NCBI GenBank assembly: GCA_947489135.1
Contig: CANLCU010000009.1
Location: 1 to 34,254 of the forward strand
Source: Micrococcales bacterium
GTDB lineage: Bacteria > Actinomycetota > Actinomycetes > Actinomycetales > Microbacteriaceae
Length of the DNA stretch: 34,254 bases
Reading direction: 5' to 3'
The position numbers and the translations under genes were made by a program. The notes under the pieces were generated by a model, which worked only from the letters and a program-made list of their open reading frames with translations, did not search any database and was not told where the DNA came from. Below, piece by piece: positions 1,673 to 5,691 of this stretch; within the stretch, counting starts at the first letter, position 1; every line of letters starts with the position of its first letter.

Positions 1673-1682
1673 ACTGTTTTGA

Positions 1683-1711
1683 CTCGAGGCATGCTTCTTA
1701 CATGTCTCGAG
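1683..1711 (+). other. Hairpin just downstream of tRNA-Tyr copy 1
   Basis: CTCGAGGCATG (1683-1693) pairs with CATGTCTCGAG (1701-1711) over 11 bp with one G-T wobble and a 7-nt loop. There is no T tract after it, so it is not a typical terminator. It may aid 3'-end formation of the tRNA or mark the island edge. Confidence 0.5.
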
Positions 1712-1784
1712 ATCAGAACCTCATTGATCTAGATGCTGGAAAGTTGCCAATTCGAGGATCTCATTCACATTTCTTCTAAAATCT

Positions 1785-1813
1785 TTCACAAAACTTAAGA
1801 TCTGTGTAATACT
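1785..1813 (+). promoter_or_regulatory. Promoter of the structured RNA
   Basis: A -35 TTCACA (1785-1790), a 17-nt spacer and a -10 AATACT (1808-1813) preceded by an extended TG at 1805-1806. The predicted start, about 1819-1821, falls just before the outer stem of the RNA at 1825. Confidence 0.55.
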
Positions 1814-1819
1814 AAAAGC

Positions 1820-1897
1820 ACAAAGACCCGATTACCGAACTGTCACCGTATGGTGTGCGTGTCTCCCCGAGAGACTAGGTATCGGGTCGATTTCTTT
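1820..1897 (+). ncRNA. Small structured RNA (three-way junction) next to DUF3800 gene
   Basis: The outer stem GACCCGAT (1825-1832) pairs perfectly with ATCGGGTC (1881-1888). Two hairpins lie inside: CACC-GTAT-GGTG (1844-1855) and GTCTC-CCCGA-GAGAC (1861-1875). Together they make a three-way junction. A promoter sits immediately upstream, and the T-rich sequence GATTTCTTT (1889-1897) follows the outer stem, so the whole looks like an independent RNA of about 75-80 nt on the plus strand. It converges on the DUF3800 gene, whose stop is at 1907. From memory, a 2017 survey of structured RNAs named several distinct 'DUF3800' RNA motifs because they occur beside such genes; I cannot confirm a match. 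The same fold could also act as a terminator for the minus-strand gene. Confidence 0.6.
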
Positions 1898-1906
1898 AAC
1901 GGCTCC

Positions 1907-2572
1907 TTATGGCACCTTCCAAAAATCCGACTTCCCATGGCTCGAAAATGGAGCAAGCATGGCTTTGTAAGAAGCTTGGTTTTTGTCCGATGTGTCGCTT
2001 GAGCGTCTTATGCAACCGGCGAACATGTCAGCAACCTGAATCAAAGAGTCGGTGTGAGATTTTACATAACTAACTTTTCTAATGAATTCAGTACCAGATT
2101 TATTCACCTCTGCCAGCAAGTATTTTCTAGCCGCAGACCTGTATTCTCGACTGCCTGTTCCATCAATTTTTACAGTGGCACCTTGGATAGTTCCTCCCGA
2201 ATTGGTTAGGACAAGTTGAATCACGTAGTTGTAGAAGGACTCAGTGCCATTTTGAAAGACATGCCTATCAATTGTTCTTTTATCCACCACTATGGATCGG
2301 ATAAAGAATAATTCAGGATTTAGCGAACTGAAGAATCTTTTCTGCAATTCGAGCTTTGTCTTGGAAAACTTAAATTCACTGTGACTTGACCTGCCAAGCT
2401 CATTACGAAGCTGTTTCACCAGGTGAGCAGTATGTTCTGCGTTCTCCGCCGACTCGAAGACGCAGCAAGCGATGACAAATAGATGGCTTGAACCGCTCTC
2501 AAGCTTGAAACCCGCATCGCCTGAGTCATCGATGAACACATACATTTGCTCAAGTGTAGGCGAATCATGCAT
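1907..2572 (-). CDS. DUF3800 domain protein
   Basis: The 221-residue protein shows the DUF3800 hallmarks. YVFIDDSGDAGF stands near the N-terminus with acidic residues D15 and D16, HLFVIACCVFE follows at 30-40, KIDGTGSREYRS is at 135-146 (D137), and DSLIQVADMFAGCIRR is at 175-190, resembling the C-terminal DxxAG block. The scattered acidic residues suggest an RNase H-like nuclease fold, but the family's activity is not established to my knowledge. I chose ATG 2572 because GAAGG lies 7 nt upstream. A TTG at 2590 would add six residues and lacks a ribosome site. The gene starts 73 nt after the XRE-TPR regulator ends, on the same strand, so the pair may be co-transcribed. A structured RNA faces its 3' end. 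DUF3800 genes are common on mobile elements, which fits the island setting. Confidence 0.85.
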   Translation of the reverse strand: MHDSPTLEQMYVFIDDSGDAGFKLESGSSHLFVIACCVFESAENAEHTAHLVKQLRNELGRSSHSEFKFSKTKLELQKRFFSSLNPELFFIRSIVVDKRTIDRHVFQNGTESFYNYVIQLVLTNSGGTIQGATVKIDGTGSREYRSAARKYLLAEVNKSGTEFIRKVSYVKSHTDSLIQVADMFAGCIRRSSDTSDKNQASYKAMLAPFSSHGKSDFWKVP

Positions 2573-2645
2573 CGAACGGCCTTCGCCCAAGACGTATTGG
2601 GGACACCCAGAAACCAGATACTCTCAGCTGCGCAAGCAGCACTTC

Positions 2646-3902
2646 TTACGTAAGTTGTCTAGCAGCTTCACGCTTCAGACTTACGCCAGCGGCATCAACC
2701 GAGTTGCGGTAGCACTCTAAAGCGTGATCTGATTGATCTAGGCCCTCGTAAACCTCTGCCATCTGAGCCCAGATTTTGGCTGTTGCACGAGACTTATTGT
2801 TGTCTTTTAGAAGTGAGGCAGCTTCAAGAAGGAGGTTCAGCGGCCGTGATTCAACTTTGCAAGCCAGAAGTACTTGAGCGTTGTCAACCAATCGCTCAGC
2901 TTTTTCCAGTTTTGGTAAGTGATTGCAGTAACTCAACGATTCATTAGCCTTTGAAACAGAACTTTCAATTTCCCCTCTCAGGAGGTAGGCCATTGCGAGA
3001 GTGTTCAGGGTGTTGGCAAGGTCTGCATCGCTTTTCTCTAGACCAAAGAGTTCAATTATTTGAAGTAAGTCTGCGATGTCGCTGTCACTAGGAACTCTGT
3101 TTGTCAGGCATGAAATAAAAATGGACCCCTGGATAAGGCGGGCCTGGGACATCTTGCGATCGAGCCCTGCAATAAGTTGGCTCGCACCTACAATCTGTTC
3201 TCTTGCTTGAACGAAGTCCCCGCGCTCATATGAAACCTGGCTTGCAGACCAAAGACCTACAACTGCGTCCCAGGTTGTGTCTACTGAATCTGGTCTGGAT
3301 TTGATCAATTCACTAGCTTTGGTCAGATCTCCAACCGCTAGGTAAACAGAGGAAAGAGTTGCTTTAGTTTCAAGCTGTAGTGATGTGGTGTCGAAGTTTT
3401 GCTGAGCAAGGTGTTCAAGGTGCTGCTGACCCCAATATATTGCTGAATAGAAATCGCCGTGATTTCTTTCAAGCCTTATTAAGCCCAAGACTGCTCGCTG
3501 GAGAGACTTGACGGGAAGCGATTTATTTCTAGCAGCGGTCTCTAATGCTGAAATCGCTACCTGGTTGTCTCCATCTCTCACAGCGATCAAACCTTGAAGG
3601 AGTAGGGCTTCATTCTCATTCTTGAGGCGTGGTAGCCATAGCTTGGCAGCCCGAGAGGAGTTGTTTTGAAGCTCCAGGCATGCCTGAAGTAACTCGGTTG
3701 ACTCAGATTTGCTCGGAGCGTCTTCGTCTGAAATGCCTAGTCTGAGGTGGATGGCCCCCAAGATCTCAGGGCTAGCATTTCGTTGACCGCGTTCTATAAG
3801 GGATAGGAGGCTAACCGAGCAAATGCCTTTAGCAGTATCTTCAAGGGACCGCCCAGCCCGAAGCCTTGCCTGCCTCAAATATTGTTTGTCAAAGTCTTTC
3901 AC
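2646..3902 (-). CDS. XRE-HTH/TPR regulator, RRNPP-like
   Basis: This 418-residue protein has an N-terminal Cro/C1-type helix-turn-helix (about residues 8-58, including SLEDTAKGICSVSLLSLIERG) followed by an all-helical region to the C-terminus. That region has repeated 34-residue-like units, e.g. ETKATLSSVYLAVGDLTKASELI and LANTLNTLAMAYLLRGEIES, consistent with tetratricopeptide repeats. HTH plus a long TPR array is the architecture of the RRNPP family (Rgg, PlcR, PrgX, ComR), whose TPR groove binds short imported signalling peptides. The start is GTG at 3902. The gene is divergent from a 31-codon peptide gene, with a perfect inverted repeat at 3951-3975 between them. This is the typical setting of a pheromone receptor and its peptide. 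Peptide binding is inference. It could instead be a TPR regulator responding to something else, but the HTH and TPR calls are sound. Confidence 0.85.
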   Translation of the reverse strand: MKDFDKQYLRQARLRAGRSLEDTAKGICSVSLLSLIERGQRNASPEILGAIHLRLGISDEDAPSKSESTELLQACLELQNNSSRAAKLWLPRLKNENEALLLQGLIAVRDGDNQVAISALETAARNKSLPVKSLQRAVLGLIRLERNHGDFYSAIYWGQQHLEHLAQQNFDTTSLQLETKATLSSVYLAVGDLTKASELIKSRPDSVDTTWDAVVGLWSASQVSYERGDFVQAREQIVGASQLIAGLDRKMSQARLIQGSIFISCLTNRVPSDSDIADLLQIIELFGLEKSDADLANTLNTLAMAYLLRGEIESSVSKANESLSYCNHLPKLEKAERLVDNAQVLLACKVESRPLNLLLEAASLLKDNNKSRATAKIWAQMAEVYEGLDQSDHALECYRNSVDAAGVSLKREAARQLT

Positions 3903-3916
3903 AAGACAACACTATC

Positions 3917-3947
3917 TTGACAAAATAGCTCAGAGAGCGTGTATGCT
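3917..3947 (+). promoter_or_regulatory. Candidate promoter of the peptide gene
   Basis: TTGACA (3917-3922) and TATGCT (3942-3947) are separated by 19 nt, longer than optimal. The predicted start, near 3954, falls inside the inverted repeat at 3951-3975. Non-optimal spacing plus an operator over the start is compatible with tight regulation. Confidence 0.45.
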
Positions 3948-3950
3948 CTT

Positions 3951-3975
3951 CATGTGTCAAAAATATTGACACATG
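3951..3975. promoter_or_regulatory. Perfect inverted repeat, likely operator of the XRE-TPR regulator
   Basis: CATGTGTCAA (3951-3960) and TTGACACATG (3966-3975) are exact reverse complements around the 5-nt centre AAATA. The repeat is the most conspicuous palindrome in the 92-nt gap between the divergent regulator and peptide genes. A second, weaker repeat CAAGA-N8-TCTTG (3902-3919) covers the regulator's own start codon. Confidence 0.7.
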
Positions 3976-3994
3976 TGAAATACAAGGGGCCAAA

Positions 3995-4090
3995 ATGATC
4001 GAGTTTATTTACTTTCTCATCACTGGGGGACAATCGAGTCAATACGAAATCACGACAACAGGCACTCCTGTCTGCTGCGAGTTCGAATAA
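3995..4090 (+). CDS. Short peptide, candidate signalling (pheromone) precursor
   Basis: The 31-codon reading frame starts at ATG 3995 with a good ribosome site (AAGGGG about 7 nt upstream) and ends at TAA 4090. The product begins MIEFIYFLI, a short hydrophobic stretch, then GGQSSQYEITTTG and ends TPVCCEFE with two adjacent cysteines. It is encoded directly opposite an HTH-TPR regulator and downstream of a perfect inverted repeat, the usual place of peptide pheromone genes in RRNPP systems. The first gene for an exported protein follows 18 nt later, so the peptide probably heads a three-gene transcript. It is too short for similarity to be judged. Alternatives are a leader peptide, a small toxin or a ribosomal-peptide precursor (the T-rich C-terminus with CC would suit that), though no modifying enzyme is encoded nearby. 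Confidence 0.6.
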   Translation: MIEFIYFLITGGQSSQYEITTTGTPVCCEFE

Positions 4091-4108
4091 AAATAAAAAG
4101 GGGTAGCT

Positions 4109-4714
4109 GTGTCAAAAAAACAAATTGCACTGGCATTACTGATTCTAGGCATTGTGGGGTTTTCCGCCCAAGGTATCTATGCACAGGTGCAGAAATCAAA
4201 TTCAATCTCTCAATGGGACAATCTCAAGCCAAAACTAGAGGAAAGTCTTGCTGATGTCGGTGACGAGCAACTGGTCGAATCCTTGAGGGGAAGAATCGTA
4301 GAGCTCATGGAGGCAAGGGCTACTTTGTCGAACGTTGATGTGACAACTGCTCAAAGGACTGATCTGGAATCATCCTCAGAGATACGTCAGACCGTTGAAG
4401 AGCTGGTGTCAAAAGTTTGGACCTCCAGAAACCTAGCAAAAAGAACTGACGACATAGTAGCTGGTTGGAACATTGCAAAATTGCATCCAAACTATAGACC
4501 ATTTACAAACGCTAAGTACGTGTTGGATTCTTGGCAAGGAATACGAGTTGCGGAAGGCGGACTTTCAGCAGAAGCTATTGTGACAGGTACAATGACATAC
4601 GTTTACGACGACGGAGCTATCGCTGACAGCCTCGATCAAAGTCAAATTAAAGTTGTCAAAGAAAACGGAATTTGGCTCCTCGATGAAACTGTCATGGTGT
4701 ACGTGGGGCGATGA
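4109..4714 (+). CDS. Exported protein of unknown function, NTF2-like C-terminus
   Basis: The 201-residue protein starts at GTG 4109 with AAAAGGGG upstream. MSKKQIALALLILGIVGFSA followed by QGIYA is a signal peptide or membrane anchor (cleavage possible after residue 25). Residues about 30-110 are predicted helical, rich in E, L and R. The last 70 or so residues (FTNAKYVLDSWQGIRVAEGG, then AIVTGTMTYVYDDG, then IKVVKENGIWLLDE) read like the curved sheet of an NTF2/SnoaL-type domain, with the typical 'variable strand then KVVKENGIWLLD' ending. I do not recognise a named family. The stop overlaps the next start as ATGA (4711-4714), so the two are translationally coupled. It may assist or anchor the amidase encoded next, but that is only context. 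Confidence 0.8.
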   Translation: MSKKQIALALLILGIVGFSAQGIYAQVQKSNSISQWDNLKPKLEESLADVGDEQLVESLRGRIVELMEARATLSNVDVTTAQRTDLESSSEIRQTVEELVSKVWTSRNLAKRTDDIVAGWNIAKLHPNYRPFTNAKYVLDSWQGIRVAEGGLSAEAIVTGTMTYVYDDGAIADSLDQSQIKVVKENGIWLLDETVMVYVGR

Positions 4715-5406
4715 AATTGATGAAGAAGAGGACGGCCGTTCTAATTTCGGCAATTTTTGCCTTCCAGGCAGGGTGGGCTGGATCTTCGAGCGCAAGCACG
4801 TTGGGTTATACATACAACAGAGCAGCTGCAGTCGCCTATGCAAATAAGTGGTCATGCAATGGGAGCACATCATGTCGAAACGGCGATTACCAAAACCTTG
4901 GAGATGAAGACTGTACCAACTTTGTCTCTCAGGCTCTATTCGCCGGAGGCGTAACTGAAGTAAAAACTGGCCAGGGCTTCGAGCAGTGGTGGTACGACGG
5001 CTATGAAGGCCTATGGCTAATTGGACCCTTGAACCGCTCCCTAAGCTGGGGTCTGGTCACGAACCTTTCAACTCATCTACAAGCAACAGGAAGGGCCACC
5101 GGAGTTACTCTCACCAACATGACAACAAAGTACTCTGGAGCTCATTCCGCAGGCGGTGATATTTTTATGTATGACTGGGGGAAAGGCGAAGGCTATTCAC
5201 ACATGGCGTTATCTACTGGGCGTGAAACTTACTACCCGTATACAGATCCAATATACGGGTCTTACACAAACATCACCGGTGGTTCAGGAGATTCAATTTC
5301 CCAACATTCAACCGATAGGGATCATGCTCCTTGGAATTGGGGATATTGGACAACCACATTGGAATACCGCGCAAAATACAGGGTCAAGCTCCTAAAAATG
5401 AATTAA
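4711..5406 (+). CDS. Secreted amidase-domain protein (Amidase_6-like)
   Basis: The protein has 231 residues. Residues 1-29 form a signal peptide (KLMKKR, then the hydrophobic TAVLISAIFAFQAGWAG and SSSA). The mature part opens with YNRAAAVAYANKW, followed by GDEDCTNFVSQALFAGG at 64-80 with the probable catalytic Cys68, and GYSHMALSTG at 161-170 with the probable catalytic His164. This is the layout of the Amidase_6 family (PF12671), NlpC/P60-like cysteine hydrolases suggested to act on cell-wall or other amide bonds. The protein is short for multidomain members and appears to be the domain alone. It starts within the previous gene's stop (ATGA overlap). Being last in the peptide-headed operon, it may be the output of the circuit, for example wall remodelling, lysis or peptide maturation. 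The true substrate is unknown. Confidence 0.82.
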   Translation: MKLMKKRTAVLISAIFAFQAGWAGSSSASTLGYTYNRAAAVAYANKWSCNGSTSCRNGDYQNLGDEDCTNFVSQALFAGGVTEVKTGQGFEQWWYDGYEGLWLIGPLNRSLSWGLVTNLSTHLQATGRATGVTLTNMTTKYSGAHSAGGDIFMYDWGKGEGYSHMALSTGRETYYPYTDPIYGSYTNITGGSGDSISQHSTDRDHAPWNWGYWTTTLEYRAKYRVKLLKMN

Positions 5407-5531
5407 AACAACGATTCCCAGTACCTCAAACACTGTTCCTGATTCTGGGCATTCCAGTAATAGCAGCAGTTAGTTTCTTGGTTGGACCACCTAAGCGTTA
5501 CAAGTTCAACCCAAGGTTGGCTCTCGACTAG
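5331..5531 (+). other. Doubtful small reading frame with one membrane segment
   Basis: An open frame continues past the amidase stop in another frame and encodes one clear hydrophobic segment, TLFLILGIPVIAAVSFLVG, followed by PPKRYKFNPRLALD and a stop at 5531. Only TTG codons (5331, 5337, 5346) inside the amidase gene are available as starts, and none has a ribosome site. It is either a small overlapping membrane-protein gene or the 3' remnant of a larger one. I favour a remnant. Confidence 0.25.
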
Positions 5532-5567
5532 ACCAGCTAACTCGAAGAGGATATTCAGGTATTCTTT

Positions 5568-5691
5568 AGAAGCACCCGTCCGGCTGATTACAGGCGGCCG
5601 GGAGCACTGGCTAGTTACCCAAGCGGCCAAAGGGATCTGACTGTAAATCAGCCGGCTCAGCCTTCGGGGGTTCGAATCCCTCACTAGCCAC
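5568..5691. repeat. Direct repeat, right copy (contains tRNA-Tyr 2)
   Basis: Identical to 1549-1672 over 124 bp. With two mismatches the match reaches back to 5554. The mismatches lie just upstream of the tRNA (TATTGTTGAG in the left copy, TATTCTTTAG here), where promoter elements could be, so the two tRNA copies may differ in expression. Confidence 0.9.
5609..5690 (+). tRNA. tRNA-Tyr (GTA), copy 2
   Basis: An exact copy of the 82-nt tRNA-Tyr at 1590-1671, with the same GTA anticodon, class II variable arm and A discriminator. A strong terminator follows 6 nt later, so this copy retains what looks like the original chromosomal 3' flank. Confidence 0.97.

Follow-up and report, generated by a model that had tools for sequence, protein, structure and literature searches.

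A DUF3800-IX RNA beside a DUF3800 gene

The window, i.e. the whole stretch of 34,254 nucleotides that was analysed, carries at positions 1825-1892 of the plus strand an RNA that matches the Rfam family RF02968 (DUF3800-IX) over the full length of the covariance model, with 67.3 bits against a gathering cut-off of 36.8. The RNA converges on a DUF3800 gene on the minus strand (1907-2545), the stop codon of which sits 15 bp past the RNA and which encodes a protein of 212 aa from the ATG at 2545 (PF12686, E 6.5e-16); a longer ORF of 227 aa starts from a TTG at 2590. Several 'DUF3800' RNA motifs near such genes were reportedly described in a structured-RNA survey of 2017, and a sequence-only reading of this region, which had correctly recognised the convergent arrangement, proposed either one of these motifs or a new one. 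The first of these proposals holds and the second falls away: the window RNA is the same as RF02968 in sequence, fold and adjoining DUF3800 gene and, judged by these features, it is an ordinary member of a catalogued family, within which nothing distinguishes the window copy.

The RNA is a three-way junction made up of a closing helix, P1, two hairpins, P2 and P3, and a U-rich tail. P1 is an interrupted helix of 11 bp, the 5' strand (1825-1836) of which contributes 8 bp (1825-1832), a bulged U (1833) and another 3 bp (1834-1836) and pairs with the 3' strand (1878-1888); both strands are supported by the model match and by covariation. Hairpin P2 (1841-1859), with a GUAU loop, is nearly invariant in sequence and is likely, as a putative assignment, a protein-recognition element. 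Hairpin P3 (1861-1875) varies in length and sequence, its pairing being backed by covariation. The T-rich tail, TTTCTTT (1891-1898), was read from the sequence and, together with P1, is the probable, predicted end of transcription; a search for simple-hairpin terminators called none at the window RNA. The 8-bp closing stem, the two internal hairpins and the T-rich end described in the earlier reading are thus all present. The folding energy of the window RNA stands out only slightly (z -1.83) and is by itself weak support for an RNA here; the comparison of relatives is decisive.

Upstream of the RNA lies a sigma-70-like promoter (1785-1813, plus strand) composed of the -35 box TTCACA (1785-1790), a spacer of 17 bp and the -10 box AATACT (1808-1813), which is extended by a TG at 1805-1806. 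It ends 11 bp before the RNA and has 9 of 12 matches, a score commonplace by chance (one such match found, 1.6 expected in shuffled sequences). The sister locus L057 carries the same boxes with the same spacing, and in most relatives boxes recur upstream with almost constant placement (best scores average 8.62 of 12, against 7.21 ± 0.11 in shuffles). The extended -10 promoter proposed before is in this way borne out, and the span 1785-1897 given for the unit correctly takes in both promoter and RNA. The predicted transcript probably runs from about 1820 to about 1900, i.e. some 80 nt, its start being placed by the promoter and its end by the T-rich tail. Across the aligned RNAs there are 182 G-U vs 37 A-C pair cells, and because G-U cells far exceed A-C cells the RNA lies on the strand given by Rfam. 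A mere terminator of the DUF3800 gene is excluded by this imbalance, by the upstream promoter on the opposite strand, and by the near-invariant loops, for which such a terminator has no need.

Conservation of the RNA and its link to DUF3800

Relatives were collected with a pattern of the conserved core, which matched bacterial genomes at 43 stretches and viral contigs at 11; extra patterns brought in additional viral stretches. Chance matches without the downstream fold were left out of the set; the pattern matches L015, L033, L042, L055, L065 and L072 failed as RNAs. A covariance search of 198 genomes recovered the RNA in seven, one of them the window genome. When 65 RNAs (62 distinct) were aligned, 86.7% of the pair cells were standard pairs, and the covariation score, for n = 65 and an alignment fitted to the structure, was 0.433; shuffles gave 0.148 ± 0.009, and slid controls never exceeded 0.131. 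P2 and the junction barely change among relatives; P1 and P3 change with compensation. At the level of sequence comparison the three-way-junction fold is therefore backed by covariation across the 65 RNAs, and the search for compensatory changes in homologues, suggested beforehand, came out in its favour. One locus, L043, holds three tandem DUF3800-IX RNAs behind one promoter; elsewhere the RNA is single. Another DUF3800-IX RNA (L073, 1514-1600) lies antisense inside a phage reading frame of 3355 aa, with promoter-like sequence upstream.

DUF3800 is found at 35 of the 40 cellular RNA loci, be it intact, decayed or cut by a contig end. In loci with the gene it converges on the RNA, its stop mostly lying 54-79 nt after the start of the core, and a few loci are farther apart or rearranged. 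A protein-first search over 397 genomes of the phylum gave a DUF3800 match in 17. DUF3800-IX is present in each of the four genomes, the window genome among them, whose proteins match best; of the six that rank next, three contain DUF3800-V RNA, and one genome with a weaker protein has DUF3800-VII. The class of the RNA tracks the clade of the DUF3800 protein. Moreover, RNA and protein distances are correlated (Mantel r 0.67; maximum of 5000 permutations 0.24), which common descent alone might produce. Among 113 neighbours no recurrent third gene accompanies the pair, and some neighbours are defence genes (restriction, ThsB-like, Schlafen AlbA_2), counted without a control set. Taken together, RNA and DUF3800 very probably form a functional RNA-protein partnership.

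DUF3800-V (RF02964) and DUF3800-VII (RF02967) are likewise small RNAs that lie by another clade of DUF3800 proteins, but their folds and lengths differ from those of DUF3800-IX. DUF3800-VIII (RF03075) has CCGAA and GUAGG as in DUF3800-IX, again with a different fold and length, the elements common to both classes being CCGAA and GUAGG/UAGG. At L043 a DUF3800-VIII RNA and the three tandem DUF3800-IX RNAs (1522-1588 and 4825-5067) flank a large gene (1925-4762) that appears TIR-like by eye.

The AlphaFold2 model of the DUF3800 protein has a mean pLDDT of 92.1, and its best solved structural matches are RNases HII (1eke, E 1.6e-5, TM ~0.5, 13% identity); a search for solved sequence relatives found none. 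D21, E72 and D143 (numbering of the 227-aa ORF) are conserved without exception in 31 of 31 proteins, as is D188 in the 30 that extend far enough, so that DUF3800 is predicted to have an RNase HII-like fold with an RNase H-type acidic site, D-E-D-D. The likeness to RNase HII thus consists in the predicted fold and the four-acid pattern, whereas the TM score and identity given above, and the linked RNA, set DUF3800 apart. The gene product also resembles the PADLOC candidate defence protein PDC-M04A (E 2e-13), and two papers on CRISPR count DUF3800, as a nuclease of RNase H fold, among the accessory proteins of V-A2 and VI-F loci (PMC10910872, PMC12669027).

A partnership of this kind leaves room for the RNA to be an essential cofactor, i.e. 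for RNA and DUF3800 to form an active ribonucleoprotein nuclease, with phage copies that lack the gene competing for or redirecting the host protein. The invariant loops, the concordant RNA and protein distances and the RNase H fold would suit such a complex, as would the presence of DUF3800 in V-A2 and VI-F CRISPR loci, where RNA acts with protein (PMC10910872, PMC12669027). However, the RNA has no variable or guide-like segment, its loops being invariant and its ends paired, and in cells it outlasts the gene: it is kept where DUF3800 has decayed (L019, L044), and five of the 40 cellular loci have no recognisable DUF3800 (L007, L025, L031, L034 and L040, with only ~750 bases past the RNA available for L034). 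Persistence of the RNA once the gene is lost or has decayed fits an antitoxin better than a cofactor, and we consider the cofactor role unlikely.

RNAs without a DUF3800 gene in viral records

Five viral records with a true RNA contain DUF3800 and 14 of 19 lack it (PF12686), L064 being excluded from the count as its record stops just after the RNA. Orphan RNAs are accordingly far more frequent in viral records than in cellular loci (14 of 19 vs 5 of 40, Fisher p 6e-6), with the reservation that these record-wise counts are non-independent (e.g. L070 and L074) and that the records are often fragments. A recheck with profile A3 in 13 of the 14 viral orphan records found no DUF3800. Four orphans lie at or near genes for the terminase large subunit (L047, L049, L056, L067), and others neighbour a RecE-like exonuclease (L051), a DnaC-like loader (L071) or an integrase (L063). 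In L070 and its sibling L074 the RNA is placed within a replication cluster like that of T4 (clamp loader, RegA, Hsp20, RNA, MazG-like protein, DNA polymerase). Two orphan records look cyanophage-like, yet none of the 43 cellular pattern matches is in a cyanobacterial genome, and in some phage orphans (L047, L054, L063, L066) no promoter of their own was recognised; both observations count against the reading favoured below.

In a cyanophage related to the L070 region the adjoining genes are present and the RNA is lacking. Among isolate relatives of orphan-bearing phages, DUF3800-IX RNA is absent from Pseudanabaena phages Pam1 and Pan3 and from a stretch of Synechococcus phage ACG-2014j, and a direct BLAST of the RNA against isolate phages gave nothing convincing; against plasmids there was one weak match, to an Acetobacter record. 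Single pattern scans of viral contigs found no orphans of DUF3800-V or DUF3800-VII. The sole pattern match for DUF3800-VII, L118, lies in coding sequence and was rejected as a viral orphan; the orphan pattern is therefore not shown as general for the DUF3800 motifs. The gene-less RNAs could also be remnants of decay.

The phage copies may also be unrelated to any host nuclease and serve a function of the phage's own, e.g. as a terminator or processing signal in phage operons. The RNA of L070 ends in a stem and a U-run, a cyanophage relative carries a plain terminator-like stem at the corresponding place, and several orphans lie in line with their flanking genes. Yet a terminator would not preserve invariant loops and all three helices, the orphans occur in unrelated gene contexts, and relatives of two such phages are without the RNA, all of which renders this explanation quite unlikely. 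Slightly less probable still is that the RNA lowers DUF3800 expression as an antisense or transcriptional-collision regulator, its structure mainly terminating or stabilising it. Convergence, an RNA end near the stop codon and the T-rich sequence after P1 would be expected of such a regulator, but it would have no need of the invariant P2 and junction and leaves both the orphan phage RNAs and the tandem copies unexplained.

One of the cellular orphans, that of L031 (1325-5038, Brevundimonas), is a gene-less DUF3800-IX RNA near a small gene and a large gene that look by eye RelE/HigB-like and methyltransferase-like, respectively.

A possible RNA-restrained nuclease

We tentatively favour another reading, to which we give somewhat less than an even chance, in which the RNA acts like an antitoxin, binding the nuclease and restraining it, and phages carry decoys; binding, restraint, toxicity, anti-phage action and decoy role are all inferred. 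We arrive at it because the RNA comes with a promoter of its own, an invariant face and a nuclease as partner, because it outlives the gene, and because phages hold copies without the gene. The system would be a two-part unit. Its RNA, some 80 nt long, would be transcribed from a separate promoter in the direction of the end of the DUF3800 gene and folds as a three-way junction, the invariant P2 and junction (CCGAA ... UAGG) of which would be bound by DUF3800, a small RNase HII-like nuclease. During normal growth the RNA would restrain the nuclease, similar to the RNA antitoxins of type III toxin-antitoxin systems and of AbiF. Phage infection may then upset the balance of RNA and nuclease, so that the nuclease would be freed and infection halted, and phages may respond by carrying only the RNA, a decoy by which the host nuclease would stay bound.

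The nearest models with experiments behind them are AbiF with RCd22 and phage pseudo-ToxI. AbiF and its RNA RCd22/abiF (RF03085) resemble this arrangement in having a catalogued RNA of ~100 nt with its own promoter, located by a nuclease gene and with prophage examples (PMC12373285); RCd22 neutralises AbiF in trans (PMC12373285). AbiF is, however, a HEPN protein with the RNA upstream and co-transcribed, whereas for DUF3800-IX an RNase H fold is predicted and the RNA is convergent. ToxIN similarly combines a short RNA with a nuclease (in our case a predicted one), has phage-borne copies of the RNA, as illustrated by a phage pseudo-ToxI RNA that defeats ToxIN (PMC3475682), and has a parallel in the RNA array of L043. 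Unlike DUF3800-IX, usually one convergent three-way-junction RNA, ToxI consists of repeats arrayed upstream within the toxN operon. As DUF3800 is convergent with its RNA, in contrast to the downstream genes of ToxIN and AbiF, the two are not co-transcribed, which counts against restraint by the RNA, and single RNAs being the rule and arrays the exception counts against a ToxI-like reading. The layout that defines type III systems, an RNA antitoxin immediately upstream of the toxin and in one transcript with it, differs from the convergent one found here, and we therefore do not file DUF3800-IX as a type III toxin-antitoxin system, even though it may work like one.

More doubtful is the wider proposal that an RNase HII-like anti-phage toxin under a convergent, usually single-copy RNA represents a new layout of RNA antitoxins, and that diverse phages, T4-like ones included, carry counter-defence decoys. 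If a phage RNA does silence a bacterial nuclease, the orphan RNAs and the DUF3800 family would count among the defence systems controlled by RNA, and natural inhibitors could be sought in phage genomes. The DUF3800 RNAs are catalogued, and the literature searched, which did not extend to the original 2017 survey of the motifs, contained neither a function for them nor an account of orphan phage RNAs, the counts of which are new here. The tracking of RNA class and protein clade, the RNA outliving its gene and the gene-less phage RNAs make a functional test concrete and cheap.

In the window, RNA and DUF3800 are part of an island of 4019 bp (1673-5691) that also holds three further genes and is bounded by a 138-bp direct repeat, the left copy of which (1535-1672) contains a tRNA-Tyr at 1590-1672 and the right copy (5554-5691) one at 5609-5691. 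In a close relative, whose flanking EamA protein is 92% identical, the island is absent and the same flanks join at a single tRNA-Tyr; the island was therefore gained in the window genome or lost in the relative, and the duplicated tRNA favours a gain. This location, together with some prophage-like records and homing-endonuclease genes near some orphans, might point to a selfish mobile nuclease of the homing or OMEGA kind, travelling together with its RNA. However, the OMEGA systems (TnpB/IscB) derive a guide from DNA flanking the element, whereas DUF3800-IX has constant paired ends and its own upstream promoter, with no guide from flanking DNA, and the insertion is a 4-kb tRNA island with other genes rather than a unit ending at the RNA, making mobility of this kind extremely improbable.

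The repeat duplicates the whole tRNA-Tyr plus 55 bp upstream; usual tRNA integrations copy the 3' end only. No integrase was recognised among the scanned island genes. Apart from RNA and DUF3800, the island encodes a regulator with helix-turn-helix and TPR (2646-3902, minus strand), a perfect palindrome around TGTCAAAAATATTGACA (3955-3971), an ORF for a 31-aa peptide (3995-4090), an unknown ORF (4109-4714) and an Amidase_6 protein (4711-5406), and this part (2646-5406) looks like a cassette with a peptide-sensing (RRNPP-type) regulator.
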